A DNA stretch of 64,000 bases, from the NCBI GenBank assembly GCA_013138735.1, contig WTCE01000001.1, forward strand, positions 1 to 64,000, read 5' to 3'. The notes beneath the pieces are model-generated. The model saw only the letters and a program-made list of their open reading frames with translations. It was not told where the DNA came from and made no database searches. Position numbers and translations under genes: made by a program. The stretch comes from Crocinitomix sp. Lineage in GTDB: Bacteria; Bacteroidota; Bacteroidia; Flavobacteriales_D; Crocinitomicaceae. Below are positions 14,242 through 31,668 of this stretch, in pieces. The number at the start of each line of letters is the position of its first letter. Position 1 is the first letter of the stretch.

Positions 14242-14586
14242 TTAAGGGTGAAGAAAATTCTTCTTTTTCAACAAATCACTTTGAGATTCTACATAGTTTT
14301 CGTCACTTATGCAACAGTCGACTGGGCATTCTACTGCGCACTGAGGCTCTTCATGGAAGCCAACACATTCGGTACATTTCTCTGGGACAATAAAAAAGAA
14401 ATCGTCAGATAATGCTTTTTGGTTAGCTGTAGAATCAACTTCTTTTCCATTGACTTGTACTTTTCCAACATAGGTGTTTCCTTCTGATATAGTCCACTCT
14501 TCTTCATATACGTATATTGAAGTATTTGGACAGGCATCAACGCAAGCACCACAGTTAATACATTCATCCGTAATTTTTAATGCCAT
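14242..14586 (-). CDS. 4Fe-4S dicluster ferredoxin
   Basis: A 114-residue electron carrier with two 4Fe-4S motifs: C9-x2-C12-x2-C15-x3-C19-P, and C71-x2-C74-x8-C83-x3-C87-P. The C-x2-C-x8-C spacing and the long loop between the clusters match YfhL-like dicluster ferredoxins common in Bacteroidota. It sits between the nitrilase-like gene and the P450, with gaps of 6 and 27 bases. It could reduce the P450s, the five radical SAM enzymes, or both. The clusters appear complete. Confidence 0.9.
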   Translation of the reverse strand: MALKITDECINCGACVDACPNTSIYVYEEEWTISEGNTYVGKVQVNGKEVDSTANQKALSDDFFFIVPEKCTECVGFHEEPQCAVECPVDCCISDENYVESQSDLLKKKNFLHP

Positions 14587-14592
14587 AAGTTT

Positions 14593-15492
14593 TTATTTTT
14601 TTAGTAATAATTTTATTTCTTTCAGAGTTAAAATGTTAAGCGCAGTTAAAGTAGGAATCACCTCAACATTTGATTGAGATTCCACATACAACAAGCGTTC
14701 TTTTTCGATTAGATTAACTGTAAAGTGTTCTTCTAATTTATTTACTAATTCATCAAGTGGCATGGGTAGTAAATCAATGCTAATGAATGCATAATCACAG
14801 TTGATTGATTTGCATAAAGAACTTTCCATTCTTTCTGTTTCTCCGATAGTTTTACCGAGCGGATCAATAATCCGCGAGCCACCTTGTCGATTAGAAGTTA
14901 CAACAAACGTTTTATGCTGTTGTGCAATACTATTAATGAGCTGTCCACCGTGAAATGCTGTCACCCAAAAAATCAAATTTAGCGGTGTAGCATTCTTCTC
15001 AAATACTGTGTTAAATTGATATACATCACTACAAATAAATATCCCAATGGTTCCAAAATCGCAGGTGACAATTGGTGCCGTTTCTCCTTTTTTAACGCCG
15101 AGTTCAAATGAATTAAAGTTCTCATCATCTGGCCAAGGGAATTGTTTATGATATTCATAAATAACTTCGCCATTTCTATTAATTAAAACAGCTGCGTTAA
15201 CATAATCTGTGCCTGTTGAAAGATAGAGCGGACATATAATGTATGTGCGGTGCTTTTTTGCTATTTCGGAAAATTGGGTAATTGTTGGGCCGTTTATCTC
15301 TTCTGCCAATTCACTAACATCATTTACCCTAACATTTTTGACTGAAAAAGCTTCGGGGAGACATACAATATCAACATTTTTATTTTCATCCAATTTCTTA
15401 TTCAGTTCTTTAATGATGGCTTTATTATTTCCTTCTTTGGATCGGGACAAAACCCGCGTCTGATCAATTGTTATGATAGAAATTGATTTCAT
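14593..15492 (-). CDS. carbon-nitrogen hydrolase (nitrilase superfamily)
   Basis: The superfamily hydrolyses or forms amide-type C-N bonds through a Glu-Lys-Cys triad. In this 299-residue protein I place E47 (CLPEAF), K116 (YHKQFPW) and C154 (IFICSDV). The region after the Cys contains a FWVTAFHGG segment and an R-Q-G-G-S-R-I-I-D-P-L-G stretch typical of the fold. The substrate cannot be read from sequence; a pathway amide, nitrile or N-acyl group are all possible. It is tightly coupled to its neighbours, with one base to the upstream gene and six to the ferredoxin. Confidence 0.85.
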   Translation of the reverse strand: MKSISIITIDQTRVLSRSKEGNNKAIIKELNKKLDENKNVDIVCLPEAFSVKNVRVNDVSELAEEINGPTITQFSEIAKKHRTYIICPLYLSTGTDYVNAAVLINRNGEVIYEYHKQFPWPDDENFNSFELGVKKGETAPIVTCDFGTIGIFICSDVYQFNTVFEKNATPLNLIFWVTAFHGGQLINSIAQQHKTFVVTSNRQGGSRIIDPLGKTIGETERMESSLCKSINCDYAFISIDLLPMPLDELVNKLEEHFTVNLIEKERLLYVESQSNVEVIPTLTALNILTLKEIKLLLKK

Positions 15493-15493
15493 A

Positions 15494-16903
15494 TTATTTA
15501 GTGAATGTCAATGAATAAATTTTTGCCAATGCACCACTTAAACTGATGAATTGTGTATTTGACGGTATGCGTTTTTCATTGCTCCAGGAAAGAATTTCAG
15601 CTATTGCATTCGAAGAAATTGTGTCACAATCTTTAAAATGACACCCATCTATTTCCTTTTTATTTCCATCTAATAATGCTACTTTAATGGCGCCTTTAGC
15701 ATCTGAAATGGCGTTAATATAAACGTTCATTCCAACTTTATCGGGTATTAAGATTAGAACGCTGCCTTCTGTTTCATTAAACCGAACTGCACTAAAACGG
15801 TCTTTTGTTAACTCAGCCAAGCCTACCCCAAAGGCTTGACTTTGTGCCATTTCCTTTTCATCCATTCTAGCATCCATTCCGCCGTAGAAAATTTTTATCG
15901 TTTTTTCTTCTTGAATAAAAGTTGGCTGAACAAACAAAACTCCTCCATCCCACTCTCCCTTATTTCCATTTGCAATAAAAGGGATACTTTCATTCGGGTG
16001 AATCCATGTTTTGCTGTCCTTACTATATAATAAGTGTATGTCCACCGTATTTTTATCATTTTTATGATGAAAAATTTCTAATAAACCAATATAATAATTG
16101 TAGTATGGGGTAATGCTTAAACGGTGATAGTCAGATTGTTTATTGTCCTTTTTTGGTTTGAGTATAATTTCATGATTTGTCCAATTGACAAGATCAATAC
16201 TTTCACAACGTGCAATCATTCTTGAACAATCTTGTTCTTCCAACATCAGGTCTTTATGGCTCTTTTCGTCGTATACCAACTCGCCGTCATACATTACCTT
16301 TCGCAGTAAAATGTATTTATTTAAACCGGGATCAAAATAAAAATTAATGGTATCGTCAGCAGCATAGAAAGAAAGGTTATGAGCTATTTTGTCTATGGGA
16401 GTTTGCCAAACAACATCTCCGGGCAAATCCCAATTTACACCATCCGGTGAAAAGGCAATTCTTACTCCTTTTCCTAAGGGTTCAAAATCGCCATAATAAG
16501 CCATCACATATTGCTTATCTCCAACTGCTATATCTCTTTTAATTACGCAAGGTTGGTCAGCAGATAGGACACGCTTTAACAGGTTATTATTCCCGTTATT
16601 TACTTTGCTTATATTGTTTAAGTTTGGTTTTTTCCAAATCAACCCATCTTCACTTTCAGCATACGCTATGGCTTCATCCAAACAATCATAGGGCTCTTTT
16701 TCATCCAACCACCATTGTGTATAATACATTTTATAATGGTCACTATCTTTTATGACAGATCCGTAGGTGCATATCAATGATTCCCACGGTTGATCTTTGG
16801 TTAAGACAGGGTTATGCTGCAATTTTACAGGAGTATTTAACTCAAAACTCACATTATGAAAATCAGCAAGTTCGCTTGCATCAAAAAAGAGAATTTTATG
16901 CAT
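15494..16903 (-). CDS. GH43/32-like five-bladed beta-propeller protein
   Basis: A 469-residue protein resembling the glycoside hydrolase clan of five-bladed propellers (GH32/43/68/117/130). It shows repeated W/Y-rich blades such as KMYYTQWW, ESEDGLIWKKP and FSPDGVNWDL, then YSKDSKTWIHP and KIFYGGMDARM. No signal peptide is visible, so it should act in the cytoplasm. A glycosidase, phosphorylase or glycosyl-transfer role is possible, and no glycosyltransferase accompanies it. It overlaps the aaRS-like gene by 8 bases, so it belongs to the operon. I cannot name the catalytic residues with confidence. Confidence 0.65.
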   Translation of the reverse strand: MHKILFFDASELADFHNVSFELNTPVKLQHNPVLTKDQPWESLICTYGSVIKDSDHYKMYYTQWWLDEKEPYDCLDEAIAYAESEDGLIWKKPNLNNISKVNNGNNNLLKRVLSADQPCVIKRDIAVGDKQYVMAYYGDFEPLGKGVRIAFSPDGVNWDLPGDVVWQTPIDKIAHNLSFYAADDTINFYFDPGLNKYILLRKVMYDGELVYDEKSHKDLMLEEQDCSRMIARCESIDLVNWTNHEIILKPKKDNKQSDYHRLSITPYYNYYIGLLEIFHHKNDKNTVDIHLLYSKDSKTWIHPNESIPFIANGNKGEWDGGVLFVQPTFIQEEKTIKIFYGGMDARMDEKEMAQSQAFGVGLAELTKDRFSAVRFNETEGSVLILIPDKVGMNVYINAISDAKGAIKVALLDGNKKEIDGCHFKDCDTISSNAIAEILSWSNEKRIPSNTQFISLSGALAKIYSLTFTK

Positions 16904-18062
16904 TTGTGTTCAAGTTTAGTTGTTTCCTAATGTCTTCAAATTTTGATGCTAGGTTTTTAAAATCCTCAAAATGATAAAGTCCTATCGCATAGGTCAATCG
17001 TTCAAGTCCAACACCCATGCAACAACTCATAGCCTCGTCACCTTTGTAATTGATGTTATATTTTTTAGAAAAAAAGTTCTTATGAAAATTGATGGATGAA
17101 AATGACATCCAGTTCCCCGAGCTCTCTACTTTTGTTTTGACTTCAAATTTTGATTTACTCATATTTTGCATGAGGCTATATTTTTGATAATTCGAAACAA
17201 AAAACAGGTCATTTGCTGTCGCAATAGATGACTCCAAGTTGAATACTTCAATAATGGTTTTCATTAGGAGCAGGTATTGATCAAAAAAAAGATCAATCGT
17301 TTGGTCGTCAGCAACAATTACAATTTCTCTCATTTTAAATTCTGAAAGTCTTTCAAATGTGCTTGTCCTTCCTCTTTCATTTCGGTGACAGTTTCCTAAT
17401 AAGCTGAAAAATTGAGGGGTTTGAAAATCTTTACCGTCTAAAAGTTGATAGAGTGGACTGCATGCCGAAGTTTTTAAACAATGGGTTGGAGGAATTAAAT
17501 TTTTATTCTCAAATTTTCCATCCGTCTGAAATTTTGACATCACGTCATAATCTGCCTGTAAACTAGTAGGGAAATAAATTATTTGGGGATATTCATCTAT
17601 TATACCAAGCGCTTTATAGCTTTTTTTATCCAGAAATGTGGGTAGATTAAGTTCTGTTGCCCCCATTTTTTTTCCCCAATCAACAATTAATTTATCTAAG
17701 GATAATAAACATTCCAAAATAATTCCACCATAGGATACATGACCTTCGCCCGATTCAAAAACCAAGCCTTTTTTTAACCAGTTCTCCCAGGTATTGTTGT
17801 TTTGTTTTAAGGTAGATTGATGGCTATAAATTTCCTTTACTCTTTTCTTAATGGCGCTTTTCCCCAACTTATTAAAGAGCTCTTCAATCAATTCATTCAA
17901 TTCTATTTCCGATCCGCTATATTCTATTTCAATGCAGCCTTCATCCTCCTTATGTGTGACATTTATTTCTTTGTCAGACCCATATGAAATAACGGCTGTA
18001 AAGTAGGTTTCATCAATATCAAATTTCTTTAAAATTTGATCATCTATCGTTTGTTTCGTCAT
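16896..18062 (-). CDS. class II aaRS-like amino acid:[carrier protein] ligase candidate
   Basis: A 388-residue protein with a class II synthetase catalytic core. Motif 2 is C-H-R-N-E-R (225-230) followed by F-E-R-L-S-E-F-K-M-R-E (236-246), and motif 3 is G-V-G-L-E-R-L (350-356). No tRNA-anticodon-binding domain or long coiled-coil arm is apparent; the N-terminal 90 residues are unrelated to those of SerRS. A Cys-containing segment (CLKTSAC, 195-201) precedes motif 2, as in SerRS-like amino acid:[carrier protein] ligases, which charge phosphopantetheine carriers instead of tRNA. Being in an operon with three free carriers fits that role. It starts inside the ATGA overlap with the radical SAM gene at 18059. 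The amino acid is not predictable by eye. Confidence 0.75.
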   Translation of the reverse strand: MTKQTIDDQILKKFDIDETYFTAVISYGSDKEINVTHKEDEGCIEIEYSGSEIELNELIEELFNKLGKSAIKKRVKEIYSHQSTLKQNNNTWENWLKKGLVFESGEGHVSYGGIILECLLSLDKLIVDWGKKMGATELNLPTFLDKKSYKALGIIDEYPQIIYFPTSLQADYDVMSKFQTDGKFENKNLIPPTHCLKTSACSPLYQLLDGKDFQTPQFFSLLGNCHRNERGRTSTFERLSEFKMREIVIVADDQTIDLFFDQYLLLMKTIIEVFNLESSIATANDLFFVSNYQKYSLMQNMSKSKFEVKTKVESSGNWMSFSSINFHKNFFSKKYNINYKGDEAMSCCMGVGLERLTYAIGLYHFEDFKNLASKFEDIRKQLNLNTNA

Positions 18063-19453
18063 ATAAATTGACTTAACATTTCTACATTGTTCTTTTCAAA
18101 GCTTCTTTCTTGCCAAATGTCGTAAGAAAGATACATGGGGACATTTCGAAATTTCCGTCTGAGTTTAATATTGTGTCTGAACATCTCCTTGTCTAGCTCG
18201 GGGTATTGTGTTTTATACAGTTTTTGACTTGAGAAATCAAAATCTGCCCAGCCTTCTAATTCTTCAGGAACAATATATAGGTGTTGAAATTCTTTAATGT
18301 ATTGTGTTCCATAAACCGGATTATAATATCCTAATTCACCAGAGGGAGCACCAATTAATTCACTTATTTCGAAATGCAATTCTAATGATTTCTTTACAGA
18401 TTCCATACTCTCAACCGGATAGCTGAGCACATAAGAAAAGTGTGGTAAAATTTGATATTCTTCCCATAACAATTTTGCAATCCTTACGGTATCAACGGCT
18501 TTTATTCCCTTCTTATAAATCTTTAAGGTTTCCTCAGTTGCTGCCTCTGCTCCTAAAAAGAGCATTTCGCATCCAGCTATTTTCATTTTTTCAAGAATTC
18601 CCTTTTTATGCATTGAATCGATATCAGAAAGACGCGCTGTACAGATCCAATTTAGGTTTACTTCGCGTTCAATCATCAAATCGCAAAAATCATGTAAGCG
18701 TTGTTTATGCGCCACAAATAACGCATCTTGAAATAATACGCCATCTGCACCATACCTTTCCTTTAAAGCGACTAAATGATCCACCAATTCAATGGCAGGA
18801 ACACCATTCCATCCCGCTACGCCCTCAGCCGTCTCACTGCAAAAAGAACAGGAAAAAGGACAACCGATACTCGAAATATAATCGATCATTCGAGTACTTC
18901 TTCTGGATGTTAAATAGTAGGGTTCATAATCACTGATATACTTATCGTACTGCGGAATTAGAAGCGGTTCTTTTTTATAACTTTTAACAGGTCCCCTAAC
19001 AATTTCATTGTTTTCATCTTTCAAATAGATATTTGGGATTTGTCGTAGTTTTTCAAAGTCCCCTAAGGCCGACAATAATTCTGCAATAGAAAGCTCTCCT
19101 CTTCCTTGAATAACAATGTCAACCAATTCATGCTTTATGGTAGGCAAAGGAGCTACTGTAGGCAGTGCTCCGCCGTAAATCACAACAATGTTCGGATATT
19201 TTTCTTTCACAACAGAAATAGCTTCCAAGGAAGTTTTAACTTGTGTGCCGGGCATAGTCCCTACCAATATTGCGTCAACATTAGCAGCAACTTTTAGCAG
19301 TTCTTCAATCGGATTATCTACAACTCTTCCATCAATTAATTCCATAGCATGCCCACTACCTTCTAAACCTTTTTGCAGATGGAGGTAGGCTAACGGAGCC
19401 GTAACTAAGTAGTTATTAATTATTGGTGGGTGATAAAATACTACGCGGACCAT
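18059..19453 (-). CDS. B12-binding-domain radical SAM enzyme
   Basis: A 464-residue protein with an N-terminal cobalamin-binding-like Rossmann domain (about 1-140, DAILVGTMPGTQ.. and YGGALPTV) and a radical SAM core whose C-x3-C-x2-C is C-P-F-S-C-S-F-C near residue 200. Members of this class methylate unactivated carbons or do related radical chemistry using SAM, a 4Fe-4S cluster and often cobalamin. It overlaps both neighbours (13 bases with 19441, 4 bases with the aaRS-like gene). It is distinct in sequence from the paralogous pair at 19441 and 23781. Substrate unknown. Confidence 0.88.
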   Translation of the reverse strand: MVRVVFYHPPIINNYLVTAPLAYLHLQKGLEGSGHAMELIDGRVVDNPIEELLKVAANVDAILVGTMPGTQVKTSLEAISVVKEKYPNIVVIYGGALPTVAPLPTIKHELVDIVIQGRGELSIAELLSALGDFEKLRQIPNIYLKDENNEIVRGPVKSYKKEPLLIPQYDKYISDYEPYYLTSRRSTRMIDYISSIGCPFSCSFCSETAEGVAGWNGVPAIELVDHLVALKERYGADGVLFQDALFVAHKQRLHDFCDLMIEREVNLNWICTARLSDIDSMHKKGILEKMKIAGCEMLFLGAEAATEETLKIYKKGIKAVDTVRIAKLLWEEYQILPHFSYVLSYPVESMESVKKSLELHFEISELIGAPSGELGYYNPVYGTQYIKEFQHLYIVPEELEGWADFDFSSQKLYKTQYPELDKEMFRHNIKLRRKFRNVPMYLSYDIWQERSFEKNNVEMLSQFI

Positions 19454-20970
19454 TCTATTTTCGTTTTAATGTTTTTCACAAAACTTGATTTTTGCATGTC
19501 GGTAGCATACGCTCTAAATTCATCCAATTTTGTTATGTTCAATTTATAGAGTGAATTAATTGCTCCAATAATTTCTTCTTCTGTAAAAAACTTGGATTGC
19601 ATTTCCAGCATACTGTCAATCCGTTTTGGATTAAATATGATGCGATAAACAAAGTAATCTTTAAGGTATCTTATAAACTTATTTGGCAAGGTTGGTGTTT
19701 CATATTTCTCAACCTCATGATACAGGTTGTTAATTGAATTATTTATCATCTCTCTTGTAAACCCTTCAGACATTGCTATATCTGCCATGGCTGTACCGGG
19801 GTAATATCTTGAAAAGAAGATGTAAAGAAAATTCAGTTGATCGCACTCTTCTGCAAACTCTAAAGTTAAAAGCGCTTCTTCTTGCGTTTCTGTAGGAAGC
19901 CCGAATAAGAAAAAGGCGTTCACCATCACATTCTGACTACAGGCATAATCTATATTCTCTTTTATTTTCTTTACGTTCAAATACTTTTTGATCTTTTTTT
20001 GCAACCTCATAGAAGCTGTTTCAACAGCAAAAGTCACAAAGATGGTTCCGGCTGCAACCATTTTATCAATGTAATGTTTATCGATAGTATCTCCTCTAAT
20101 TCCGTTGGGGAAGTACAGGTTTACATCCATGTCACTGGCTATTACTAAATCGAAAACATCAATAGCTCTTTGATAATCAACATTAAAAATATCATCTACA
20201 AAGAATATATCTTTGATGCCATGATCATCATAGAGTACTTTCATTTCACTAAAAATATCTTCAGGGCTTCGCAGTCTTGCCGATTTACCAAAAATATTAT
20301 GACAATAAACGCAACGATAAGGACAACCTCTAGAGGTTAAAATCACACCTTGTTTCCGTCGGTTATAACCATAATTCATTTTCCCATCATATTTGTCGAA
20401 ATCAAAAGAAGCATAATCGGGTAAAGGAAGGTCATCTAAGTTTTTAATTTGAGCGACTTCAAAATTGTTCTTGCCGTAAACAATTCCTTTTATTTCTTTT
20501 TCCTTAATTATTCTATCCTCTTGAAAGGCTTTTACAATTTCATAAAACGTATTCTCACCTTCTCCAATGGTGACATAATCATAGATGCCGGTTTCGAACA
20601 TTGTATTTGGGTCGTCATTCGCAATTGGTCCACCCAAAGCCATTATCAACTTGTCATCAGGATAGGTTTTCTTATAGGTATCTTTGATATTTTGGGAAGT
20701 AATTAGTAATCCTTCTTGATCTAATGACATTGCTCTAAAACCTAGAATATCCGGTTTCTCTTTCAGAATATATGCCATCAATTCTTCATCTCCATTAAAG
20801 TCGATAAATGATTTGATAATCTCCCCTTCAAATTCAACCTCCATCTTTTTTAGATAGGCTATTAGATATTGCAAACCAATGGGCAAAACGAATTGATTAT
20901 CATCCACATTATAGTGATTGGTAAATAATCCATTTTGATAATCAATTAATATAATTTTTGTGCGTTTCAT
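19441..20970 (-). CDS. B12-binding-domain radical SAM enzyme (paralogue 1)
   Basis: A 509-residue enzyme with an N-terminal B12-type domain (about 1-170, LGFRAMSLDQEG, LGGPIANDDP, YVTIGEGENT), the cluster motif C-P-Y-R-C-V-Y-C near residue 217 and the shared IFFVDDIFNVD strand. It is clearly paralogous to the protein at 23781; both have FTSRGCPY/LTSRGCPY, VDDIFN and LYFPNG. Probable role: SAM- and cobalamin-dependent methylation or another radical modification of a carrier-bound intermediate (inference). It lies 5 bases from the KAS III-like gene. Confidence 0.88.
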   Translation of the reverse strand: MKRTKIILIDYQNGLFTNHYNVDDNQFVLPIGLQYLIAYLKKMEVEFEGEIIKSFIDFNGDEELMAYILKEKPDILGFRAMSLDQEGLLITSQNIKDTYKKTYPDDKLIMALGGPIANDDPNTMFETGIYDYVTIGEGENTFYEIVKAFQEDRIIKEKEIKGIVYGKNNFEVAQIKNLDDLPLPDYASFDFDKYDGKMNYGYNRRKQGVILTSRGCPYRCVYCHNIFGKSARLRSPEDIFSEMKVLYDDHGIKDIFFVDDIFNVDYQRAIDVFDLVIASDMDVNLYFPNGIRGDTIDKHYIDKMVAAGTIFVTFAVETASMRLQKKIKKYLNVKKIKENIDYACSQNVMVNAFFLFGLPTETQEEALLTLEFAEECDQLNFLYIFFSRYYPGTAMADIAMSEGFTREMINNSINNLYHEVEKYETPTLPNKFIRYLKDYFVYRIIFNPKRIDSMLEMQSKFFTEEEIIGAINSLYKLNITKLDEFRAYATDMQKSSFVKNIKTKIEWSA

Positions 20971-20975
20971 ACTTC

Positions 20976-21956: not shown

Positions 21957-21958
21957 TC

Positions 21959-22225: not shown

Positions 22226-22226
22226 G

Positions 22227-23012: not shown

Positions 23013-23013
23013 C

Positions 23014-23778: not shown

Positions 23779-23780
23779 CC

Positions 23781-25259
23781 TTATACATTTAAAAATGGCA
23801 TAATGTCCTTGTCTATGTTATTGACCTTTTTTCTAAAAAAAACGGAGTACATATCGTTAATTTCATCTTGTGTAAAATGATGATCGAGGATATTTATTGA
23901 ATTCTCAATTCTTTCTTTATTCATAAAGATGTTTCTCAAATACCAATAGTTCAGTTTTTCAAAATCCTTGGTTTTAATGTCCGGAGTATCTTGAAAACTA
24001 TAATTGTGGTATGCACCTGTGAGTTTATCCGCTTCTAGATTAATTCCAAAATCGCCGGCACTATTAAACAGGGACGTGTCTTGAAAGTATTTCACACTAA
24101 AATAATAAGGTAGTGTTAGGTGCTTAAAATCAGCAAAAAATTCAAGCGATTTCTCTGCTTCAGAAATTGTTTCAGTAGGAAAACCTACCATTAAGCAACA
24201 ATTCGTGATAATGTTCTTTTCACAGGAATAATCTACTACTTCCTTTAGCTTGTCAACATTAACATATTTTTTTATGACTTTTTGAATCCTTTTGGAGGAT
24301 GATTCCAATGAGTAAGTAATCCAGATTGTTCCAGCTTTTACCATATCATCAATTAGCTGAGGAGTTAAGATGTCAGCTCTTAATCCATTCGGGAAATAGA
24401 GGTTAACTTTAGGTCCATAATTGATCATATAATCGTTAAATTCAACTAAACGATTTTTGTCTAAATTGAAAATATCGTCCACTATGGCAAAATCTTTTAC
24501 TCCGTGGTTTTCATATAGGTAATGAATTTCATGCACCAAATTTTCAACTGTTCTATACCGAAACTTTTTTCCAAATACAACGTGACAATAGGTACATTGA
24601 TAAGGACATCCCCGTGACGTGAAAAGTGCTGCCATTTTTCTTCTGGTATATCCGTAATTCAGAAAATTAGAATATTTATCAAAATCAATGACATCATAAT
24701 CAGGTATGGGCAATGTATCAATATCATCAATCAACGGTCTTGCCTTTGTTGTTATGATCTTCTGTTCCTTTTTAAGGATTAGTCCTGCAATATCTGCCTT
24801 ATGATCGATTACATATTGTTTCCCAGAGTCATGGTACATCTGTACAATCTCTAAAAACGTCTCTTCTCCCTCGCCTTGAACATATAAATCGAATAAATTA
24901 TTTTCGAATAAATTCTCGGCAGACGGCGAAACATTTGGTCCACCTGCAACAAGCAGGGCTTCGCTGTCTAATGACCGAATAAAATTTATAATATCCTGTA
25001 TTACATTATTGTAAAAAATGACACATTTAATCCCAATTATATCCGGTTTAAATGCGTCCATCACTTTTTTAAGATCTGAAGGATCATCAAAGTCAATAAT
25101 CGTACTGATTACCTTTATTTCAAGTTCCCCTTCAAAATGCTTTTTAATATAGGCAGACAAATACATGAGACCCAATGGCACCATCACCTGATCATTATGC
25201 TTCAGCTGTTTATTATTGGTGATCCACTGATCACTTGGTTCTATTAAAAGAATTCTCAT
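23781..25259 (-). CDS. B12-binding-domain radical SAM enzyme (paralogue 2)
   Basis: A 492-residue enzyme with an N-terminal B12-type domain (about 1-160, IIGIKCVIFYNN, VAGGPNVSP, LYVQGEGEET) and a radical SAM core (C-P-Y-Q-C-T-Y-C near 218, then VDDIFNLD). It is homologous along its full length to the protein at 19441. The two may act on different positions, or in sequence. It lies 2 bases from the FGE-fold gene and 15 bases from the HemN-like gene. Methylation is the most common reaction in the class, but other radical chemistry cannot be excluded. Confidence 0.88.
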   Translation of the reverse strand: MRILLIEPSDQWITNNKQLKHNDQVMVPLGLMYLSAYIKKHFEGELEIKVISTIIDFDDPSDLKKVMDAFKPDIIGIKCVIFYNNVIQDIINFIRSLDSEALLVAGGPNVSPSAENLFENNLFDLYVQGEGEETFLEIVQMYHDSGKQYVIDHKADIAGLILKKEQKIITTKARPLIDDIDTLPIPDYDVIDFDKYSNFLNYGYTRRKMAALFTSRGCPYQCTYCHVVFGKKFRYRTVENLVHEIHYLYENHGVKDFAIVDDIFNLDKNRLVEFNDYMINYGPKVNLYFPNGLRADILTPQLIDDMVKAGTIWITYSLESSSKRIQKVIKKYVNVDKLKEVVDYSCEKNIITNCCLMVGFPTETISEAEKSLEFFADFKHLTLPYYFSVKYFQDTSLFNSAGDFGINLEADKLTGAYHNYSFQDTPDIKTKDFEKLNYWYLRNIFMNKERIENSINILDHHFTQDEINDMYSVFFRKKVNNIDKDIMPFLNV

Positions 25260-25274
25260 AATTCCTATTTGGGT

Positions 25275-26639
25275 TTAAACATTCATTAAATCTTGATTGA
25301 ATAGATTCTTTTTCTCTTGAATACTTTTGAACATGCTTTTAGCCATTCTACCCATCTCATCATCACTGTGAAAAAAGTACTGAATGTTACCAGCCCACAT
25401 TTTTCCTTTTTCAGTAATTCCAACACTATCATCAGTTGTATACATATAATCATTGTGGGCCATGATGTCAATCTTCTCTTTAAATCGACTATAATTAATG
25501 TCTGTTTTTTTACGCTCTAGGAAGTAAGGCACCAACATGATATCTCTTTCTTCTAATTGCGTTTGAGTTACATCATTTCCAGCTTCAAGTGGAAAAAGAC
25601 CGTTGTTAATATCTTCGATATATTTTTCCAAATTCGTATGATTTCTGTAATTTTTTCCAGTACTATATAGGAATGTTCTTCCAGATGGTCCAAACGAAAT
25701 TAGGTCTGAGTTAAATACATTCAGAATGCCATTTTCATGTGGCATGTGCTCAGGATTGTTCCAATTAACGCTTCTTGTTTGCGGATAACCGTGCCCTTCA
25801 AAACCTTCCATTAAAGCTTGAAACATATTGATTTCACTTATGTTATTTGGAATGGTATTAAATTTCCCTGCATCTACCATTTTTTGGAGTTTGGTATTTG
25901 GCGAAATATTTAAATCGTAGGCATCAATCACCCAAGGACTTAGCTCTGCAATTCGATCTACGTTGTAACGAATTTCAGTTACATTTTGATCTGGGCAATT
26001 GTATAATATATCACATCCCCACTCTCCAAAATCGGCTCTTTCAATCGCTTTAACGGATTTATAAACGTCAGTAACATCTGGCAATACCCCTAGCTTTTTT
26101 CTAAGTCTTTCGTTAAACGTTTGAATCCCCATTGAGGTTCTTGTAACACCATGCGCTTTTAATGCCTTTAGCTTGTCTTTATCTTGCAATGAAAAGGCAT
26201 CTCCTTCAATAGAAACAACACCTACTTCGCTACAATCTAAGTTTTTATATAGTGCATCAAGAATGGTAATAATGTGCTCTGTACCCAATAACATTGGAGT
26301 TCCTCCACCCCAATTGATGTTTGTGATTTTAACTCCTTTAAAGAAGCCTCTTTCAGCATACATTTCAATTTCTTTAACTAATGCTTTTACAAATGGCTCT
26401 ATCATAGCCGTATGACTTCTTTCTGGAACTTTATAGAAAGGACAATAATTGCATAAATAGGAGCAAAAAGGAATATGAATATAAACCATTTGCTGCCGAT
26501 CTGTTTTGATGCGCGGCTTATCCAAAAAAGACATGTATTCGGCTTGCGTATCTTTCTTTATTCCGTCTTGAAAAAGACAAATACTTGGGTATCTATAAAA
26601 GTTCGTTAATTTTTCTTTAAAATCTATCGTATCGTTCAT
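25275..26639 (-). CDS. HemN/HemW-like radical SAM enzyme
   Basis: A 454-residue protein. Its N-terminus reads M-V-Y-I-H-I-P-F-C-S-Y-L-C-N-Y-C, the coproporphyrinogen-oxidase-like cluster motif near residue 57, followed by W-G-G-G-T-P. This family includes heme chaperones and class C radical SAM methylases or cyclopropanases (for example NosN-type enzymes), which bind two SAM molecules. In a biosynthetic operon without heme genes the latter is more likely. It lies 4 bases after a free carrier protein gene (26644). No B12 domain is present. Confidence 0.85.
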   Translation of the reverse strand: MNDTIDFKEKLTNFYRYPSICLFQDGIKKDTQAEYMSFLDKPRIKTDRQQMVYIHIPFCSYLCNYCPFYKVPERSHTAMIEPFVKALVKEIEMYAERGFFKGVKITNINWGGGTPMLLGTEHIITILDALYKNLDCSEVGVVSIEGDAFSLQDKDKLKALKAHGVTRTSMGIQTFNERLRKKLGVLPDVTDVYKSVKAIERADFGEWGCDILYNCPDQNVTEIRYNVDRIAELSPWVIDAYDLNISPNTKLQKMVDAGKFNTIPNNISEINMFQALMEGFEGHGYPQTRSVNWNNPEHMPHENGILNVFNSDLISFGPSGRTFLYSTGKNYRNHTNLEKYIEDINNGLFPLEAGNDVTQTQLEERDIMLVPYFLERKKTDINYSRFKEKIDIMAHNDYMYTTDDSVGITEKGKMWAGNIQYFFHSDDEMGRMAKSMFKSIQEKKNLFNQDLMNV

Positions 26640-26643
26640 AATG

Positions 26644-26907
26644 TTATTGTTTTATTTGGGTTTTATACTTTAATACTAAATCAGCTATTGAGTTGGGAGT
26701 ATTAAAATTATCCAATGTAATATCGTTGTAATCAAACTCTTCTATTTCAAACACTTCCTGCATGTGGGAGATAAGTCTAATCACGCCCATTGAGTCAATT
26801 AGTCCCGTTTTCCATAATTCAGTATTATCTTCAATTTTCACGGTTTCATTATAAACTACTTTCGCGCTAACAAATGACTTAACTGCAGCTATTATTTCGT
26901 TTTTCAT
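26644..26907 (-). CDS. free-standing carrier protein 2
   Basis: An 87-residue carrier protein with the attachment serine in T-G-L-I-D-S-M-G and an acidic C-terminal half. The G-(I/L)-I-D-S form is shared with carrier protein 1 but not with carrier protein 3 (GLTS). It lies between an FGE-fold gene and the HemN-like radical SAM gene. The FGE-then-carrier order occurs twice in the operon. Confidence 0.87.
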   Translation of the reverse strand: MKNEIIAAVKSFVSAKVVYNETVKIEDNTELWKTGLIDSMGVIRLISHMQEVFEIEEFDYNDITLDNFNTPNSIADLVLKYKTQIKQ

Positions 26908-26916
26908 ATTTTTCTA

Positions 26917-27789
26917 TTAAAATTTATTAGACCCTATTCTAAAGCCATCAATCATGCATTTGGCATTAAAGTGGATGGCATGTCTATATGAAGGGCGTTG
27001 TTTTTCCATTCCATCCATAAAACTTCCTCCACGAATCACCTTAAAAGAAGATTTATTCCCCTCTGGATTATTGTAGGATTGATCTTTATACTCGCAATAT
27101 GAATCATGGCACCATTCATTTACATTGCCATTCATTTCATATAATCCGTATCCATTGGCAGGAAATGTTCCAACAGGTACTGGTGAATATTCGTATAAAC
27201 CAAAGGCTCCAACTTTTAAGAAACCCGCTTTTTTATTCGAAAATTCTCCTTCATACTTGTTATAATTCACCAAATCAGTTGAAGGCGTTTTTCCATGAGA
27301 AAAATCATTCAATTCAGGACCTCTGCATGCGAATTCCCATTCTGCCTCTTTAAGTAAGCGGATTCCATTTTTTGATGTATCCGAATTCAGTGTTTTCAAA
27401 TCATAGACATTTTCTAGTCCAAATTTATTGGACAACCAATTGCAGTATGCAATTGCTCCAACATAAGAAACCTGAATCATTGGATAATTTTCTGCGCCCT
27501 TGGCGATTGAATATTTTTTACCTTGTTTATGAATTAAACATGGATCTATAAAATCACACCACAGTTCATCAAAAAAAGCGGATTCATCATTTATGAAAGC
27601 GGCATATTCTTTAGCTGTCACGGCATATTTACCAATCATAAAATCATCTACTAAAACGGCATGACTGGGGCCTTCTTGCGCAAATCCTACTCCAATTGCA
27701 TCTCCTCTTAAAAACTCTCCTCCTGCAATATCTACGAGATTGCAAGCCTCAATTACTTCTGAAGATTTAGCTATTTGAACCTGTTCCAT
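26917..27789 (-). CDS. FGE/SUMF1-fold protein 2
   Basis: A 290-residue protein of the formylglycine-generating-enzyme fold. Landmarks are I-A-G-G-E-F-L-R-G-D, KYAVTAKEYAAFIN, IRLLKEAEWEFAC, GLYEMNGNVNEW, V-I-R-G-G-S-F and GFRIG. In the region where FGEs have Y-R-C-A-A-R this protein has Y-R-H-A-I-H, so classical copper-dependent FGE activity is unlikely. An oxidase or structural role is possible. It sits between a radical SAM gene (6 bases) and carrier protein 2 (10 bases). Confidence 0.82.
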   Translation of the reverse strand: MEQVQIAKSSEVIEACNLVDIAGGEFLRGDAIGVGFAQEGPSHAVLVDDFMIGKYAVTAKEYAAFINDESAFFDELWCDFIDPCLIHKQGKKYSIAKGAENYPMIQVSYVGAIAYCNWLSNKFGLENVYDLKTLNSDTSKNGIRLLKEAEWEFACRGPELNDFSHGKTPSTDLVNYNKYEGEFSNKKAGFLKVGAFGLYEYSPVPVGTFPANGYGLYEMNGNVNEWCHDSYCEYKDQSYNNPEGNKSSFKVIRGGSFMDGMEKQRPSYRHAIHFNAKCMIDGFRIGSNKF

Positions 27790-27794
27790 ATACC

Positions 27795-28766
27795 TTACAA
27801 ATTTCTAGCGCAAGCACATTCATTTGTAGCTAAAAACTTCTCTAAATCTGGGTGCATATTATCATGTATGTCTACTAGTTTATCTCCTTTAAAAACATTA
27901 GCGATAACTTTTGGAGCACCTAGCTCACATACTAAAACATCTCCATTACTGTGTAAGTGCAATTGCTTTTTACCTTCAATACAGCCAGGAAAGAACACAC
28001 CATTTTTATTATAGAACGGAGCAATTTCAGCCATAAATTCAGTGCCACATAGGTTTAAGCAACTAAAAAATATTTCTAAATTTTCTGGCTTATTATGAAT
28101 TACTTTTCTGATTACATCTCTAATTTCTTCAGGTGATACAACATCATCCCAACATTTTTGCTCTTGTGGAACTGCATTTTGAAGTTCAATTTTATCTACG
28201 CCAAGGCTATGAATGAAATTGACAAGTTTTAAGATGTTTTTATGTGTTTTGTCGAAGATGATTGTTTCTACAATTACATCTATCTCACTCTCGGCACATA
28301 AGGCTATGTTTTTTATTATTTTTTCAAAGTTTTTTTCATTTACTTTATAGTAAGCAGCATGTTCGGCAGCATCATAAAAGTTCAATGAAAAGTGGAGGAA
28401 ATTTAATCCTGCATCTTGCAATTCTTTAATTCTACCTGGGGTTAAAACGGTACCATTTGAATTTATTTGAGTCAAAATATTGTTCTCACCACAATATTTA
28501 ACCACATCTAAACAGGTTTGGTATTTAAGCAGGACTTCTCCACCAGATAATTTAACCCTTTTTAGTTTTGGAACGGATTTAATTGTCTCAATAGCATCTT
28601 CTGCACTCATAGAAACTGAATTACCAAAATCCCATGCTGTGCAATAGTCACATTTCATATTACACATTGATGTAATCCCTATTTCTAGACATTCCACTCC
28701 ATAACCAGTGTCTTCACCCTTATTTAGTTCAGAACTTTTAAAGCTTACTTTTTCCGTTTTTATCAT
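27795..28766 (-). CDS. radical SAM protein with SPASM/twitch-like C-terminus
   Basis: A 323-residue radical SAM enzyme with C-N-M-K-C-D-Y-C near residue 34 and an L-S-G-G-E SAM-binding motif. There is no B12 domain. Further cysteines occur late in the sequence (FPGCIEGKK, DVLVCELG and the C-terminal C-A-C-A), which may bind an auxiliary cluster as in SPASM or twitch enzymes. Such enzymes often modify peptide or amino-acid substrates. Here it lies between the PaaK-like ligase and the FGE-fold gene, so a carrier-bound substrate is plausible. Confidence 0.85.
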   Translation of the reverse strand: MIKTEKVSFKSSELNKGEDTGYGVECLEIGITSMCNMKCDYCTAWDFGNSVSMSAEDAIETIKSVPKLKRVKLSGGEVLLKYQTCLDVVKYCGENNILTQINSNGTVLTPGRIKELQDAGLNFLHFSLNFYDAAEHAAYYKVNEKNFEKIIKNIALCAESEIDVIVETIIFDKTHKNILKLVNFIHSLGVDKIELQNAVPQEQKCWDDVVSPEEIRDVIRKVIHNKPENLEIFFSCLNLCGTEFMAEIAPFYNKNGVFFPGCIEGKKQLHLHSNGDVLVCELGAPKVIANVFKGDKLVDIHDNMHPDLEKFLATNECACARNL

Positions 28767-28806
28767 ATTATTAATTATTTATTAGGTTAACGATTTTCGT
28801 TTTTTA

Positions 28807-30042
28807 TTACATTATAGACTTGAATACTCTTTCTTTTTTGTTGCGATAAATGGCATCTTCGATTGTTTTGAGTTTATAGCTAAGTTTAATTGGGTAACCT
28901 ATTTCACTAGAAACCGCCAATTCATATTCTGTAAAAAAAGAAGGACTAAACCCCTCATTAGCGACATATAGCACCTCAAAATCTGTATAATTATGCTGTA
29001 TTACATTGTACCATTTCACATAATCTTTTCCTTGCTTTACTAAATTGTTCATTGCTGCAGAAAAAATATCGTATCCGCAAATAGTAACATCTTGCGCATC
29101 TTTTTGCCCCAATAACAAATTGATGTAATCAATTTTCCGTGTCCCTGACAATGAAATAACGGGTTGTTTGTTACCACAATCACAGCTATTAGAAATGAAG
29201 CCTATATCGCTTGTTTTATATCGGATAATTGGTTGAATTTCATTTACTAGAGAAGTAATCAAGATTTCTCCAGTCTCTCCAGCAGCCATTGCTTGATTTG
29301 CGTTATCGACAGAAACAACTTCAGCAATAACATTTTCATTGATATGAAGCTGTCCTTTTTCGCATTCATAAGCGAGGTTGTAACACTCCAAACAACCATA
29401 ACAATTAATAAGTTTTGTATTAAAACTTTTCTCTACCAAGGCCTTATCTGATTCAGAAATACTTTCCGAAACGGATTCGATAAATTCAATAGACCATTTT
29501 TTTAAGTCAAATCCAAATTCATGAATATACTTAGCGTAATAGATTAAAAGCATTGGGTTACCGTGTAGTACTGTTGGTTTTACTTCGTCTCTCAAGTAAA
29601 TTAGCACCTTTAAAATGTTAGAATTGTTTAGGTTTCCTAGTCCATTTTGGTAGCCATTACTTTCGTAGTCTCTATTATGGATAAAACAGAACATATTGTC
29701 AAGCGTATAATTACGGTAAATATGTTTTCTTTTACGGAGAAGGCTCAAGGCATATTTAGTTGCTTCTTTTTTCGATTTAACGCATAAAAGCGGGTATCCA
29801 CTTGAACCTGAAGTATATTCAACAATTAAATCACAATCGCCATTTTCATCAATAATTGATTGGTAAGCTTCGTGGTAAATTTCACTTATAAAACCAAGGC
29901 GATTATTGATCATTGCACTTTTATCAACAATTGGAAAATCATTCAGAGACAGGGCTGTTCCTTTTGGGTGCATTCCCTTATAAAAAGGCACGTTGTTAAC
30001 CGCCTTTTCAAGTATATTTTGTAGCCGAATAGTATTACTCAT
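28807..30042 (-). CDS. PaaK/CapK-like adenylate-forming enzyme
   Basis: A 411-residue member of the phenylacetate-CoA-ligase-like branch of the ANL superfamily, which activates carboxylic acids as acyl-adenylates. It has the P-loop E-Y-T-S-G-S-S-G-Y-P, an I-N-C-Y-G-C-L-E core, and I-R-Y-K-T-S-D-I-G-F followed by C-D-C-G (a PaaK-type Cys cluster). The substrate is probably an aryl, acyl or amino acid, passed to CoA or a carrier protein. It overlaps the next ligase gene by one base. Confidence 0.8.
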   Translation of the reverse strand: MSNTIRLQNILEKAVNNVPFYKGMHPKGTALSLNDFPIVDKSAMINNRLGFISEIYHEAYQSIIDENGDCDLIVEYTSGSSGYPLLCVKSKKEATKYALSLLRKRKHIYRNYTLDNMFCFIHNRDYESNGYQNGLGNLNNSNILKVLIYLRDEVKPTVLHGNPMLLIYYAKYIHEFGFDLKKWSIEFIESVSESISESDKALVEKSFNTKLINCYGCLECYNLAYECEKGQLHINENVIAEVVSVDNANQAMAAGETGEILITSLVNEIQPIIRYKTSDIGFISNSCDCGNKQPVISLSGTRKIDYINLLLGQKDAQDVTICGYDIFSAAMNNLVKQGKDYVKWYNVIQHNYTDFEVLYVANEGFSPSFFTEYELAVSSEIGYPIKLSYKLKTIEDAIYRNKKERVFKSIM

Positions 30043-31436
30043 TATTTTCGTATCATCTTACCAGTTTCACCTTTATTTATTTCATCTACTATTTGAATTT
30101 CTTTTGGCCATTTCAACGGATTTAACAGGTTTGTTAAATAGCTATGAACGGCAGATAAGGTGATGGGAGGGTTATTATCTTTCGTAATTTGAAGTACTGG
30201 AATTTCTCCATACATTTCATCTTTTTTGGGTTTAATTATAAATGAACGTTTAGGCAATAGTTCATTTAATACAGCTTCTATTTCTTCTGGGTAAATATTA
30301 TAGCCTCCACAAATAATTGTGTTTTTTATTCTTCCTTTAATTATTATTCTTCCTGACTTGTCAATAACCGCAATGTCACCGGTATGCAACCAACCGTTGC
30401 AAATAGTTTGTTCGCAAAATTCAGGGGCTTCAAAATATTCAGTAATAACTGAATCCCCTTTTACACACAGTTCCCCATCTTCTAATACTTTTACTTCAAG
30501 ACCATTAATAGGATATCCATTTGTAAGCACTCTTGGACCAGCTTCGGTGAGTCCATAGGTATTATAAATGTCAGCATTGGGCAATAATTCTTTTAGAGAT
30601 TTATTATTTGCTTCATTTATAAAATCGCCTCCAATGCAAATTTGCACAAGCGAATCCAATTTATATTTGCTTAAATACCGATAATTGAGTAATGTTTTGA
30701 GTTGTGTAGGAACTAAATATACGCTTTTTATTTTTCTTTTTTGGATCTGCTTAAAAATTTCCTTGGGATAAAAAACTTGAGCCTCAGACAATTCGATACA
30801 AGAACCGTCAATCGCTGCGCCAATAATTTGTGCGGTAATTGTATACGCCCCTACTATTGGTAATACAATTAGGCTATAATTTTCTGGAATGCGCTTCAAA
30901 GAAAGCAGGTGGTTTTTAGCATTTAAAAAGAGTGCTTCTCCTGAATGTTCAACTAGCTTAGGTTCAGCGGTTGTTCCAGAAGTTTTAAGAATAAGCGCCC
31001 CACATCCTTTTACCTTTTCAGAAGGTTTGGAAGGAGATTTAATGATTTCAAATTTGAAATCAGAATTTAGGGTGAAAATTCCATCCACAAAATTCTCCAA
31101 ATTTTCTTTTGGAAGTTTTTTTACGTTGGGAACAAATAACCAATTAGATTTAACTTTTTCGCTAAGTGCAATTATTTCTTTAGCAGTTGAACTTGTTGAA
31201 AGCGGAACAACACAATTATCTAAGGACCAGAGCAACCAAAACGCTGTTATGGATTTTATTGATTGATCCATAATTGCTAAAACTCTTGTTTCAGAGATCG
31301 CTGACTTGCTCAAAAACGTTTTGTTTTCTTCAATTATTTCTAATAAATCTTTAAAAGAAATATTTCTAGAGGGACTCCTTAAATAGATTCGATCAGGGGA
31401 TTGATTTGTCAATATGTTTAATGCCCAATTATACAT
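30042..31436 (-). CDS. stand-alone AMP-dependent acyl/aminoacyl ligase
   Basis: A 464-residue ANL enzyme with L-K-T-S-G-T-T-A-E-P-K, N-T-Y-G-L-T-E-A-G, GWLHTGD and a C-terminal ETGKMIRK that holds the catalytic Lys. It overlaps the carrier protein gene at 31429 by 8 bases, like a split A-T pair. It is therefore the best candidate to load carrier protein 3. Its length is shorter than that of NRPS A domains plus linkers, and its motif form is closer to acyl-CoA synthetases. Confidence 0.83.
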   Translation of the reverse strand: MYNWALNILTNQSPDRIYLRSPSRNISFKDLLEIIEENKTFLSKSAISETRVLAIMDQSIKSITAFWLLWSLDNCVVPLSTSSTAKEIIALSEKVKSNWLFVPNVKKLPKENLENFVDGIFTLNSDFKFEIIKSPSKPSEKVKGCGALILKTSGTTAEPKLVEHSGEALFLNAKNHLLSLKRIPENYSLIVLPIVGAYTITAQIIGAAIDGSCIELSEAQVFYPKEIFKQIQKRKIKSVYLVPTQLKTLLNYRYLSKYKLDSLVQICIGGDFINEANNKSLKELLPNADIYNTYGLTEAGPRVLTNGYPINGLEVKVLEDGELCVKGDSVITEYFEAPEFCEQTICNGWLHTGDIAVIDKSGRIIIKGRIKNTIICGGYNIYPEEIEAVLNELLPKRSFIIKPKKDEMYGEIPVLQITKDNNPPITLSAVHSYLTNLLNPLKWPKEIQIVDEINKGETGKMIRK

Positions 31437-31668
31437 GTTGCTTATTCACAACTTTTTCAATATTGTTAATTGTTTGGAAATTTTCCAGGTCTAAATCATC
31501 ATCATCAAAAATGATATTGAACTCCGACTCTAGATAAAAGATTAGATTCATAATTTGAATAGAGGTAAGACCCACTTCTTCAATTAAATCTGTATCATTC
31601 CCAAAATCCAACTCTTTAACTTCTACTTTTTTCACAACGGCAATGCCTTGTTTTATTCGTTCTTTCAT
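31429..31668 (-). CDS. free-standing carrier protein 3
   Basis: A 79-residue carrier with the attachment serine in V-G-L-T-S-I-Q-I and a strongly acidic helix region (DDDDLDLE). It is coupled to the downstream AMP-ligase by an 8-base overlap and lies 4 bases from the SDR gene, which in turn overlaps the NRPS gene that ends in a bare C domain. It is therefore the nearest candidate to deliver a unit to that terminal C domain (inference). Confidence 0.87.
   Translation of the reverse strand: MKERIKQGIAVVKKVEVKELDFGNDTDLIEEVGLTSIQIMNLIFYLESEFNIIFDDDDLDLENFQTINNIEKVVNKQHV

Follow-up and report, generated by a model that had tools for sequence, protein, structure and literature searches.

An operon in Crocinitomix sp. 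that may join a lipohexapeptide to an end unit built on free carrier proteins

What might be made by a row of radical SAM enzymes and free carrier proteins that runs directly into a set of nonribosomal peptide synthetase (NRPS) genes? In the stretch of Crocinitomix sp. DNA analyzed here (64 kb, hereafter the window), 18 genes, all on the minus strand, occupy positions 14242-31668, with spacings of -13 to +40 bases as checked from the ORF coordinates, and the row continues, co-directional and tightly packed, into an SDR gene and three NRPS genes. The SDR gene overlaps that of NRPS 3 by 4 bases, and carrier 1 lies within 4 bases of the SDR gene. Long neighboring frames with family matches are no chance pattern. 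Families were assigned through Pfam, NCBIfam and PDB sequence searches, from which gene content, gene order, domain architecture and residue patterns were read directly. An earlier reading made from the letters alone, the sequence-only reading, had listed the parts of this interval as separated by gaps of 0-41 bases; the tightness holds with slightly different values, and every listed family was recovered, but the SDR and P450 genes lie just outside the interval, the single P450 has a second one beside it, and a GH130-like gene is an additional member.

The NRPS genes define the first part of the answer:

49814-54889, minus strand: NRPS 1, FAAL-T-C-A-T with a lipid starter (Pfam AMP-dom_DIP2-like part, 49.1 bits; motif order)
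43251-49805, minus strand: NRPS 2, C-A-T-C-A-T (Pfam domain counts, motif order)
33745-43254, minus strand: NRPS 3, three C-A-T modules, then a terminal C domain (Pfam domain counts, motif order)
32383-33744, minus strand: terminal C domain of NRPS 3 (PF00668, 190.6 bits; NHIICDG motif)

A FAAL starter followed by six C-A-T modules is the make-up of a lipopeptide NRPS. Read by eye under the Stachelhaus scheme, the adenylation codes, which are weak guides, presumably correspond to a basic (Orn-like), a small (Ala-like?), a Thr, an unassigned, an Asp-like and a Val residue, the Thr-like code lying in NRPS 2. N-terminal TubC-type docking domains matched in NRPS 2 and NRPS 3 score 22.3 and 15.6 bits, under the Pfam cut-off of 26, and acidic DELI-like tails were seen by eye on NRPS 1 and NRPS 2 and not on NRPS 3, the pattern expected if NRPS 3 acts last. 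The assembly line ends in a condensation domain, with no thioesterase or reductase release domain at this end, and Pfam reported no thioesterase family in any of 33 scanned window proteins, NRPSs included. This terminal domain retains the second His of its motif. No A, T or TE domain follows, so that an acceptor would have to be supplied from elsewhere; in all six modules the A domain is paired with a T domain, which leaves the terminal C domain as the only one in need of an outside partner. With 16-21% identity to the remaining six, the terminal domain stands apart among the seven C domains of the window, as does only one more, the NRPS 1 starter C domain (16-20%). A search of plasmids with the terminal C protein gave remote matches only. 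Terminal C domains can also take free amines or cyclize the chain.

Candidates for the outside partner are encoded in the same row, together with possible loading enzymes:

31429-31668, minus strand: free carrier protein 1 (PP-binding, 35.1 bits, above the Pfam cut-off of 20.8)
26644-26907, minus strand: free carrier protein 2, DltC-like (NF003464 DltC model, 38.0 bits vs a cut-off of 68)
21959-22225, minus strand: free carrier protein 3 (PP-binding, 25.5 bits vs 20.8)
16896-18062, minus strand: class II aaRS-like amino acid:[carrier protein] ligase candidate (NF005479, 103.9 bits vs a cut-off of 357)
28807-30042, minus strand: PaaK-like adenylating enzyme (NCBIfam, sub-cut-off; PDB 9s3l, E 4.5e-22)
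30042-31436, minus strand: AMP-dependent ligase, MenE/AmcH-like (PF00501, 106.4 bits), overlapping carrier 1
8061-8714, minus strand: 4'-phosphopantetheinyl transferase, which activates carriers (Pfam ACPS, 55 bits vs 25)

All three carriers have, by eye, a Ser at the expected site, although carrier 2 stays under the Pfam PP-binding cut-off (16.0 bits vs 20.8) and its assignment rests on the sub-cut-off DltC model. The aaRS-like protein aligns over residues 125-378 with PDB 3mey (Bll0957; E 4.8e-15), including the Cys, Glu and Cys positions that we take to be zinc ligands in that structure, and shares with Bll0957-type amino acid:[carrier protein] ligases the class II aaRS-like catalytic core; because its score of 104 bits is well under the family cut-off, it is called a ligase candidate rather than a member. 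Among the matches listed, its plasmid relatives are 20.9-28.9% identical. The PaaK-like gene has no Pfam match. The AMP ligase matches the AmcH model of the cispentacin AmcH/AmcB pair at 123 bits vs a cut-off of 370, and carriers 1, 2 and 3 match the AmcB model at 34.8, 24.0 and 18.8 bits vs a cut-off of 80. Thus, three loading-enzyme candidates accompany three carriers.

Among these carriers, and not among the NRPS genes, lie the genes for five radical SAM enzymes, three of them B12-binding, and for an oxygenase:

18059-19453, minus strand: B12-binding radical SAM enzyme c, BchE/PhpK-like (PF02310 and PF04055; CX3CX2C)
19441-20970, minus strand: B12-binding radical SAM enzyme b (PF02310 and PF04055)
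23781-25259, minus strand: B12-binding radical SAM enzyme a (PF02310 and PF04055)
25275-26639, minus strand: HemN/HutW-like (class C) radical SAM enzyme (TIGR04107, 171.6 bits vs a cut-off of 400)
27795-28766, minus strand: MoaA/YfkAB-like radical SAM enzyme (PF04055, 81.1 bits; YfkAB model, 75.9 vs 250)
22227-23012, minus strand: PhyH-type Fe/2-oxoglutarate oxygenase (PF05721, 102.7 bits; HxD and a later His present)

Three proteins combine both Pfam domains above cut-off with the CX3CX2C motif, as is characteristic of class B radical SAM enzymes; enzymes a and b are 37% identical in an alignment, and enzyme a matches 9ccb, TokK, AprD4 and CysS in the PDB. The three would most likely carry out C-methylation or a related radical step. 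CysS of the NRPS pathway for cystobactamid is, according to PMC12846815, a B12 radical SAM enzyme that methylates a pantetheine-bound building block and in this respect resembles the window enzymes; it differs in targeting an aromatic methoxy group, and its match to enzyme a (E 5e-7) covers only part of the length. The HemN-like protein matches HemN (1olt) and NocN (9p2u, E 1.2e-19) and is akin to the class C enzymes HutW, NocN and C10P (PMC6050322 for the last), but falls under the family cut-offs. The MoaA/YfkAB-like enzyme has a Cys cluster at its C-terminus. At Rfam gathering thresholds, no cobalamin or SAM riboswitch was detected in the window.

The same row encodes a further protein that may handle acyl groups:

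20976-21956, minus strand: KASIII-like protein, predicted acyltransferase (Pfam; Cys124/His283/Asp288)

The sequence-only reading had listed this protein as KAS III-like, and the residues speak against a condensing enzyme. In alignments with FabH (4wzu, 1zow), Cys124 is kept, the condensing His is replaced by Gln252 and the Asn by His283; the Cys-His-Asn triad is thus absent, and a condensing KASIII role was set aside because both the His and the Asn are replaced. Cys124, His283 and Asp288, residues shared by the L055 relative, instead fit the Cys-His-Asp acyl-transfer triad of the ChlB3/CerJ type: in ChlB3, which transfers acyl groups, Asp301 follows His296 by five residues, the same spacing, a comparison made by the residue numbering given in PMC9573744. 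According to the same source, DpsC, termed a condensing enzyme, has Ser-His-His with a His near the same place; therefore, a His there is alone no proof of acyl transfer. The nearest PDB matches are ordinary FabH enzymes, ChlB3 (7eqi), matched through a two-sequence profile at E 1.2e-7, ranks under several of them, and the window protein is remote in sequence from ChlB3/CerJ-type acyltransferases. Its residue pattern makes an acyltransferase more likely than a condensing enzyme. AfcL of the AFC-BC11 lipopeptide cluster, labeled a KASIII-like acyltransferase in PMC12186527, offers a parallel within a lipopeptide cluster, but AFC-BC11 is assembled without condensation domains, and section 8 of that paper names no radical SAM enzyme. 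Plasmid searches with the window protein gave remote matches only, and its AlphaFold model has a mean pLDDT of 37.6.

The remaining members of the row and its immediate surroundings are as follows:

31673-32386, minus strand: SDR oxidoreductase, FabG-like (PF00106, 148.7 bits)
26917-27789, minus strand: FGE-fold protein a (PF03781, 156.1 bits vs 23.3)
23014-23778, minus strand: FGE-fold protein b (PF03781, 131.9 bits vs 23.3)
15494-16903, minus strand: GH130-like protein (Pfam GH32N, 22.9 bits vs 22.1)
14593-15492, minus strand: nitrilase-superfamily (CN_hydrolase) protein (PF00795, 78.8 bits)
14242-14586, minus strand: ferredoxin, 4Fe-4S type (Pfam Fer4 families)
12985-14214, minus strand: cytochrome P450 a (Pfam p450, 114 bits; heme Cys motif FGPGIHSCIG)
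11597-12835, minus strand: cytochrome P450 b (Pfam p450, 82.9 bits; heme Cys motif FGTGMHECIG)
10489-11514, minus strand: homocysteine S-methyltransferase (PF02574, 292 bits)
8752-10392, minus strand: SyrD/PvdE-type peptide export ABC transporter (TIGR01194, cyclic peptide export ABC transporter, 392.6 bits vs a cut-off of 286.2)

In FGE (6muj), the GGS motif is followed by CHDSYC, whose Cys pair we take to bind copper. The aligned residues of FGE-fold a are D259 and Q264, and those of FGE-fold b, placed only by position in the motif, are L216 and N221; because the pair is missing from both, neither protein was filed as FGE, and an FGE-type oxidase role is rejected with respect to copper-cysteine chemistry only. 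The GH130-like assignment is weak: the beta-1,2-mannobiose phosphorylase model gives 37 bits, far under its cut-off of 450, PDB 7fip is matched at E 4e-4, the mean pLDDT of the AlphaFold model is 31.9, and plasmid searches gave remote matches only, with an unrelated neighborhood around the match. The nitrilase-like protein has candidate E-K-C triad residues, located by eye from motif positions. The ferredoxin is a possible electron donor, and a role in SAM recycling is possible for the homocysteine S-methyltransferase, whose sole match was found in its own genome.

We favor, with a probability of about 0.5, one operon producing a lipohexapeptide with an unusual C-terminal unit built by a carrier-tethered pathway in the style of type II systems; its chemical steps, cargo and product are what we infer from the parts. 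The shared operon with the NRPS genes had been proposed before and is supported, and the terminal C domain without a module makes the idea of an added unit more specific, placing it at the end. The fatty-acyl-AMP ligase would start the chain and the six C-A-T modules would lengthen it, while the aaRS-like ligase and two AMP ligases would load amino acids or small acids onto the carriers. The three B12, the HemN-like and the MoaA-like radical SAM enzymes, along with the PhyH oxygenase, would then alter the carrier-bound cargo, and the KASIII-like protein would shift an acyl group from carrier to carrier. Finally, one of the three free carriers would present the acceptor in trans to the terminal condensation domain, which would couple the end unit to the peptide; release would take a separate step, the P450s may complete the molecule, and the ABC exporter would take the product out. 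The fully elaborated version of this pathway is a more tentative proposal: a type-II-like radical assembly line in which a small building block on three free carriers passes through a PhyH step and as many as five radical SAM steps, is handed from carrier to carrier by a KASIII-derived acyltransferase and is taken up by the terminal C domain as a lipopeptide end piece. The favored arrangement gives no role to the FGE-fold, GH130-like, nitrilase-like and PaaK-like proteins and names no release enzyme, both of which count against it.

Comparison with other genomes indicates an orphan combination of parts of known kinds: nothing close to the complete set was found in the searched genomes. Only the source genome itself yielded the aaRS-like gene (E <= 0.001; 1 of 59 relatives and 1 of 395 phylum genomes), B12 enzyme a (E <= 1e-45; 1 of 395 phylum and 1 of 240 family genomes), the KASIII-like protein (E <= 1e-25; 1 of 395) and the HemN-like protein (E <= 1e-60; 1 of 299 order genomes); these totals (59-395) include the source genome, many genomes recur between samples, a number of them are incomplete, and only part of the first-look candidates were scored in the larger samples. 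The aaRS-like protein by itself, scanned against genome contigs with weak patterns built from one sequence, gave no match. The B12 alignment scan returned at least 587 stretches and at least 450 relatives, and the best 80 of these gave 79 loci, several of them short, none of which held the gene combination in tblastn searches; the fullest among the best 80 of at least 450, in Myxococcus, has matches to four kinds (ABC, P450, B12 radical SAM and HemN-like). Because several loci are short and the relatives number at least 450, some may have been missed. Pfam finds carriers in loci L055 and L015 and PhyH in L013 that our carrier profile and single-sequence PhyH query missed, and counts from these two were therefore not used. 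Viral contigs contained one weak relative.

Partial combinations do occur, and the first two of the following count in favor of the preferred arrangement, the third against it. A Granulicella MAG contig combines a carrier with a B12 radical SAM enzyme and a KASIII-like protein that has matching Cys/His/Asp residues. On a Streptomyces plasmid (L010), an aaRS-like relative lies among free carriers, an AMP ligase, separate condensation-domain proteins, a P450 and a PPTase, with no radical SAM match there. On a Roseibium plasmid, a B12-enzyme relative lies in a sugar/glycan-type cluster beside PhyH genes, away from carriers. Scattering of the genes among unrelated pathways, which would speak against a joint pathway, is thus seen at the family level only, for B12 and KASIII-like relatives. 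No independent relative of the whole set, showing the genes kept together, was found in the genomes and loci searched, and, in agreement with the sequence-only reading, a search of open-licence PMC papers found no described pathway of this make-up.

Other arrangements fit parts of this evidence. The KASIII-like acyltransferase could put a carrier-built acyl group on a peptide side chain, such as a Thr hydroxyl or a basic amine, with the terminal C domain releasing the chain by cyclization or with a free amine. The Cys124/His283/Asp288 pattern suits such an enzyme, and the Thr-like code in NRPS 2 could supply a site. We regard this as unlikely; it leaves the terminal C domain unlinked to the three loading enzymes, and no relative shows this arrangement. 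We consider it improbable that NRPS-bound amino acids or the NRPS-bound peptide are the substrates of the radical SAM and PhyH enzymes, the free carriers providing only a small starter or side supply: although one reading frame of an Aminicenantes contig (L062) contains both a B12-enzyme relative and an NRPS adenylation domain and two loci (L033, L034) hold both NRPS and B12 matches, the radical genes of the window sit with the carriers and its NRPSs contain no radical SAM domain by Pfam. Two neighboring pathways sharing a transcription unit, one being the lipohexapeptide NRPS and the other an unrelated carrier pathway for a second metabolite or lipid, are similarly improbable, since the gene overlap joining the SDR to NRPS 3 and the closeness of carrier 1 argue against a division and the terminal C domain would be left without a carrier, even if B12-enzyme relatives occur with a carrier, AMP ligase and LuxE-like enzyme in L015 and with ketosynthase-like proteins (by eye) in L055, with no NRPS seen at either locus.

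If the carrier-built end unit is real, dedicated carriers, and not free substrates or peptides, would be the site of the radical chemistry, and the operon would be a concrete system with several successive radical SAM steps on carrier-bound intermediates. It would also provide a test case for the recruitment of a unit in trans by a terminal condensation domain and would assign both the aaRS-like carrier ligase, a rare kind, and the KASIII-derived acyltransferase to a single defined pathway, leading to a lipopeptide with an end unit beyond prediction by present rules.

The minus-strand genes called in the sequence-only reading are real and packed as described, with 18 genes between 14242 and 31668 at spacings of -13 to +40 bases, and the same-strand run carries on through an SDR gene (31673-32386) and three NRPS genes (32383-54889) at spacings of -4 to +8 bases. 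Co-directional genes downstream (spacing 27 to 149 bases) encode two P450s, a homocysteine S-methyltransferase, an ABC transporter and a phosphopantetheinyl transferase, the peptide-export ABC transporter scoring above the TIGR01194 cut-off. The G+C content is 33-36% in each 4-kb step, so that base composition does not set the operon apart from the remaining window. A homocysteine S-methyltransferase would be in keeping with heavy SAM consumption; however, as the genome gave no other match, this gene may have a housekeeping role. A gene on the same strand, 41 bases upstream of NRPS 1, encodes an outer-membrane beta-barrel family protein (PF14905; 54931-57327) and may belong to the operon. Farther upstream, genes for a C39-peptidase ABC transporter, an HlyD-like protein (weak match) and an OEP protein (57606-62360) make up a second export system besides the SyrD/PvdE-type one at 8752-10392. 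The sole Rfam match in the window at gathering thresholds is a DUF805b RNA (63113-63145; 38.7 bits versus 35.6).

The three synthetases, encoded on the minus strand within 32383-54889, contain the following Pfam domains:

NRPS 1, minus strand: two AMP-binding domains (one with a DIP2-like part), one condensation (C) domain and two carriers
NRPS 2, minus strand: two C domains, two adenylation (A) domains and two carriers
NRPS 3, minus strand: four C domains, three A domains and three carriers

Taking the DIP2-like part as a sign of a FAAL, the motif order is FAAL-T-C-A-T in NRPS 1, C-A-T-C-A-T in NRPS 2 and three C-A-T modules followed by an extra C domain in NRPS 3; matches under the Pfam cut-off suggest TubC-type N-terminal docking domains in NRPS 2 and NRPS 3. 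The final 453 residues of NRPS 3 form a complete condensation domain (Pfam, 190.6 bits) with the motif NHIICDG in place of the expected HHxxxDG, the second histidine being retained, and no thioesterase or reductase domain follows it in this protein. Since every A domain has its own carrier, this terminal C domain is the sole site in the line that needs an outside acceptor. The earlier proposal, that an unusual amino-acid-derived unit is built on carriers and added to the lipopeptide, is plausible and can now be sharpened to an in-trans carrier pathway that would end at the terminal C domain. With 16-21% identity to the six other C domains of the window, the terminal C stands out from the rest together with one other, the NRPS 1 starter C domain; the latter is still more divergent (16-20%), so distance alone does not mark the terminal C as special. 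The odds of the in-trans reading are unaffected, because it rests on the missing module behind this domain.

A search with the terminal C found matches in 6 of 99 genomes, including its own. In two same-genus genomes with NRPS genes, the best matches were only 22 and 28% identical, and the B12-binding radical SAM enzyme a (23781-25259) was absent from both at the cut-off. Within the genome itself, another condensation-domain match lies near the opposite end of the contig that carries the window (C126; about 94462-95493 of 95886), and further matches on contigs C33, C57, C92 and C93 indicate a genome rich in NRPS genes.

Three candidate enzymes could load the free carriers, namely, an AMP ligase, a PaaK-like enzyme and the aaRS-like protein (16896-18062). 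The genes for carrier 1 (31429-31668) and the AMP ligase share 8 bases; carrier 2 (26644-26907) is DltC-like and the weakest carrier assignment of the three; and the gene for carrier 3 (21959-22225) is flanked by the PhyH and KASIII-like genes. The core of the aaRS-like protein aligns to the Bradyrhizobium carrier ligase Bll0957, with the metal-ligand positions in register. Distant relatives occur in 92 plasmid records, at 20.9-28.9% identity among the matches listed (20 in one search and 50 in another). The nearest partial relative in layout is a Streptomyces locus, where an aaRS-like gene adjoins a carrier and two dehydrogenase-type genes reminiscent of an aminomalonyl-type set. Nearby genes encode a PPTase, a P450, an AMP ligase, one more free carrier and condensation domains as separate proteins; tblastn with the window proteins gave no radical-enzyme match there. 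This layout is a hint of serine or glycine as cargo, not a proof for the enzyme in the window.

All five radical SAM proteins keep the CX3CX2C motif. Three have a B12-binding domain besides the radical SAM domain, and two of these three are 37% identical; the fourth is HemN/HutW-like, and the fifth is MoaA/YfkAB-like with additional cysteines near the C-terminus. Because none reaches an NCBIfam family cut-off among the matches listed (for the fifth, the best 25 of 70), C-methylation by the B12 enzymes is only a guess, if the most likely one. At the two positions where FGE has its copper cysteines, both FGE-fold proteins carry other residues, which rules out the FGE mechanism; a PDB search ties FGE-fold protein a to ToxD, PvdO and CalU17, names known from natural-product pathways.

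Compared with FabH structures, the KASIII-like protein (20976-21956) retains the cysteine, whereas the catalytic His and Asn are replaced by Gln252 and His283, respectively. According to PMC9573744, the acyltransferase ChlB3, which moves an acyl group from one carrier to another, has the triad Cys113, His296 and Asp301; in the window protein, Asp288 follows His283 by five residues, the same spacing. The same text describes DpsC, a condensing enzyme, with Ser-His-His, so that a histidine at this position alone does not prove acyl transfer; unlike DpsC, the window protein retains the cysteine and misses the first histidine. The closest relative found (31% identity; Cys, His and Asp kept) is encoded on a 6.2-kb Granulicella MAG contig that also has genes for a B12 radical SAM enzyme, a carrier and, by eye, two ketosynthase-like proteins. 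A two-sequence profile of both recovers ChlB3 (E 1.2e-7), DpsC and CerJ, ranked under several FabH enzymes. Taken together, the residue pattern, the Granulicella relative and the profile matches favour acyl transfer over chain-building condensation as the predicted activity.

Judged by sequence searches, the gene set looks like an orphan. Matches were confined to its own genome for the aaRS-like gene (1 of 59 relatives and 1 of 395 phylum genomes), B12 enzyme a (E <= 1e-45; 1 of 395 phylum and 1 of 240 family genomes), the KASIII-like gene (E <= 1e-25; 1 of 395) and the HemN-like gene (E <= 1e-60; 1 of 299 order genomes). Scanning genome contigs with the B12 alignment yielded at least 79 loci. 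In a tblastn comparison of 25 window proteins with 94 loci (three window copies excluded from the listing), the fullest were the Streptomyces locus and a Myxococcus locus with ABC, P450, B12 radical SAM and HemN-like matches.

Several loci carry other associations. NRPS and B12 matches are both present in L033 and L034 (tblastn). On an Aminicenantes contig (L062:11741-14711), a B12 radical SAM relative and an NRPS adenylation domain share a single reading frame, by eye with the radical SAM part ahead of the B12-like part; an assembly artefact is possible, given an N run and broken frames nearby. Among plasmids, B12 enzyme a has a single relative at E <= 1e-30; its gene lies on a Roseibium aggregatum plasmid (L013:19132-22207), between two PhyH genes in a sugar/glycan-type cluster, and the two enzyme kinds may recur as a pair. 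A marine-biofilm MAG contig (L015:3726-11377), whose Nanoarchaeota label may result from a binning error, encodes a protein related to B12 enzyme b (38%; window copy 19441-20970) alongside a LuxE-like enzyme, an AMP ligase and a carrier.

Searches of the open-licence PMC literature listed no paper with this combination in its title or the opening of its abstract; subscription papers and preprints fall mostly outside that scope, so a cluster described elsewhere is possible. The gene set joins known kinds of enzyme in a new combination, and it is plausible that the carrier-built unit would leave via the terminal C domain, the natural exit of an in-trans pathway, with a KASIII-derived acyltransferase acting between the two.
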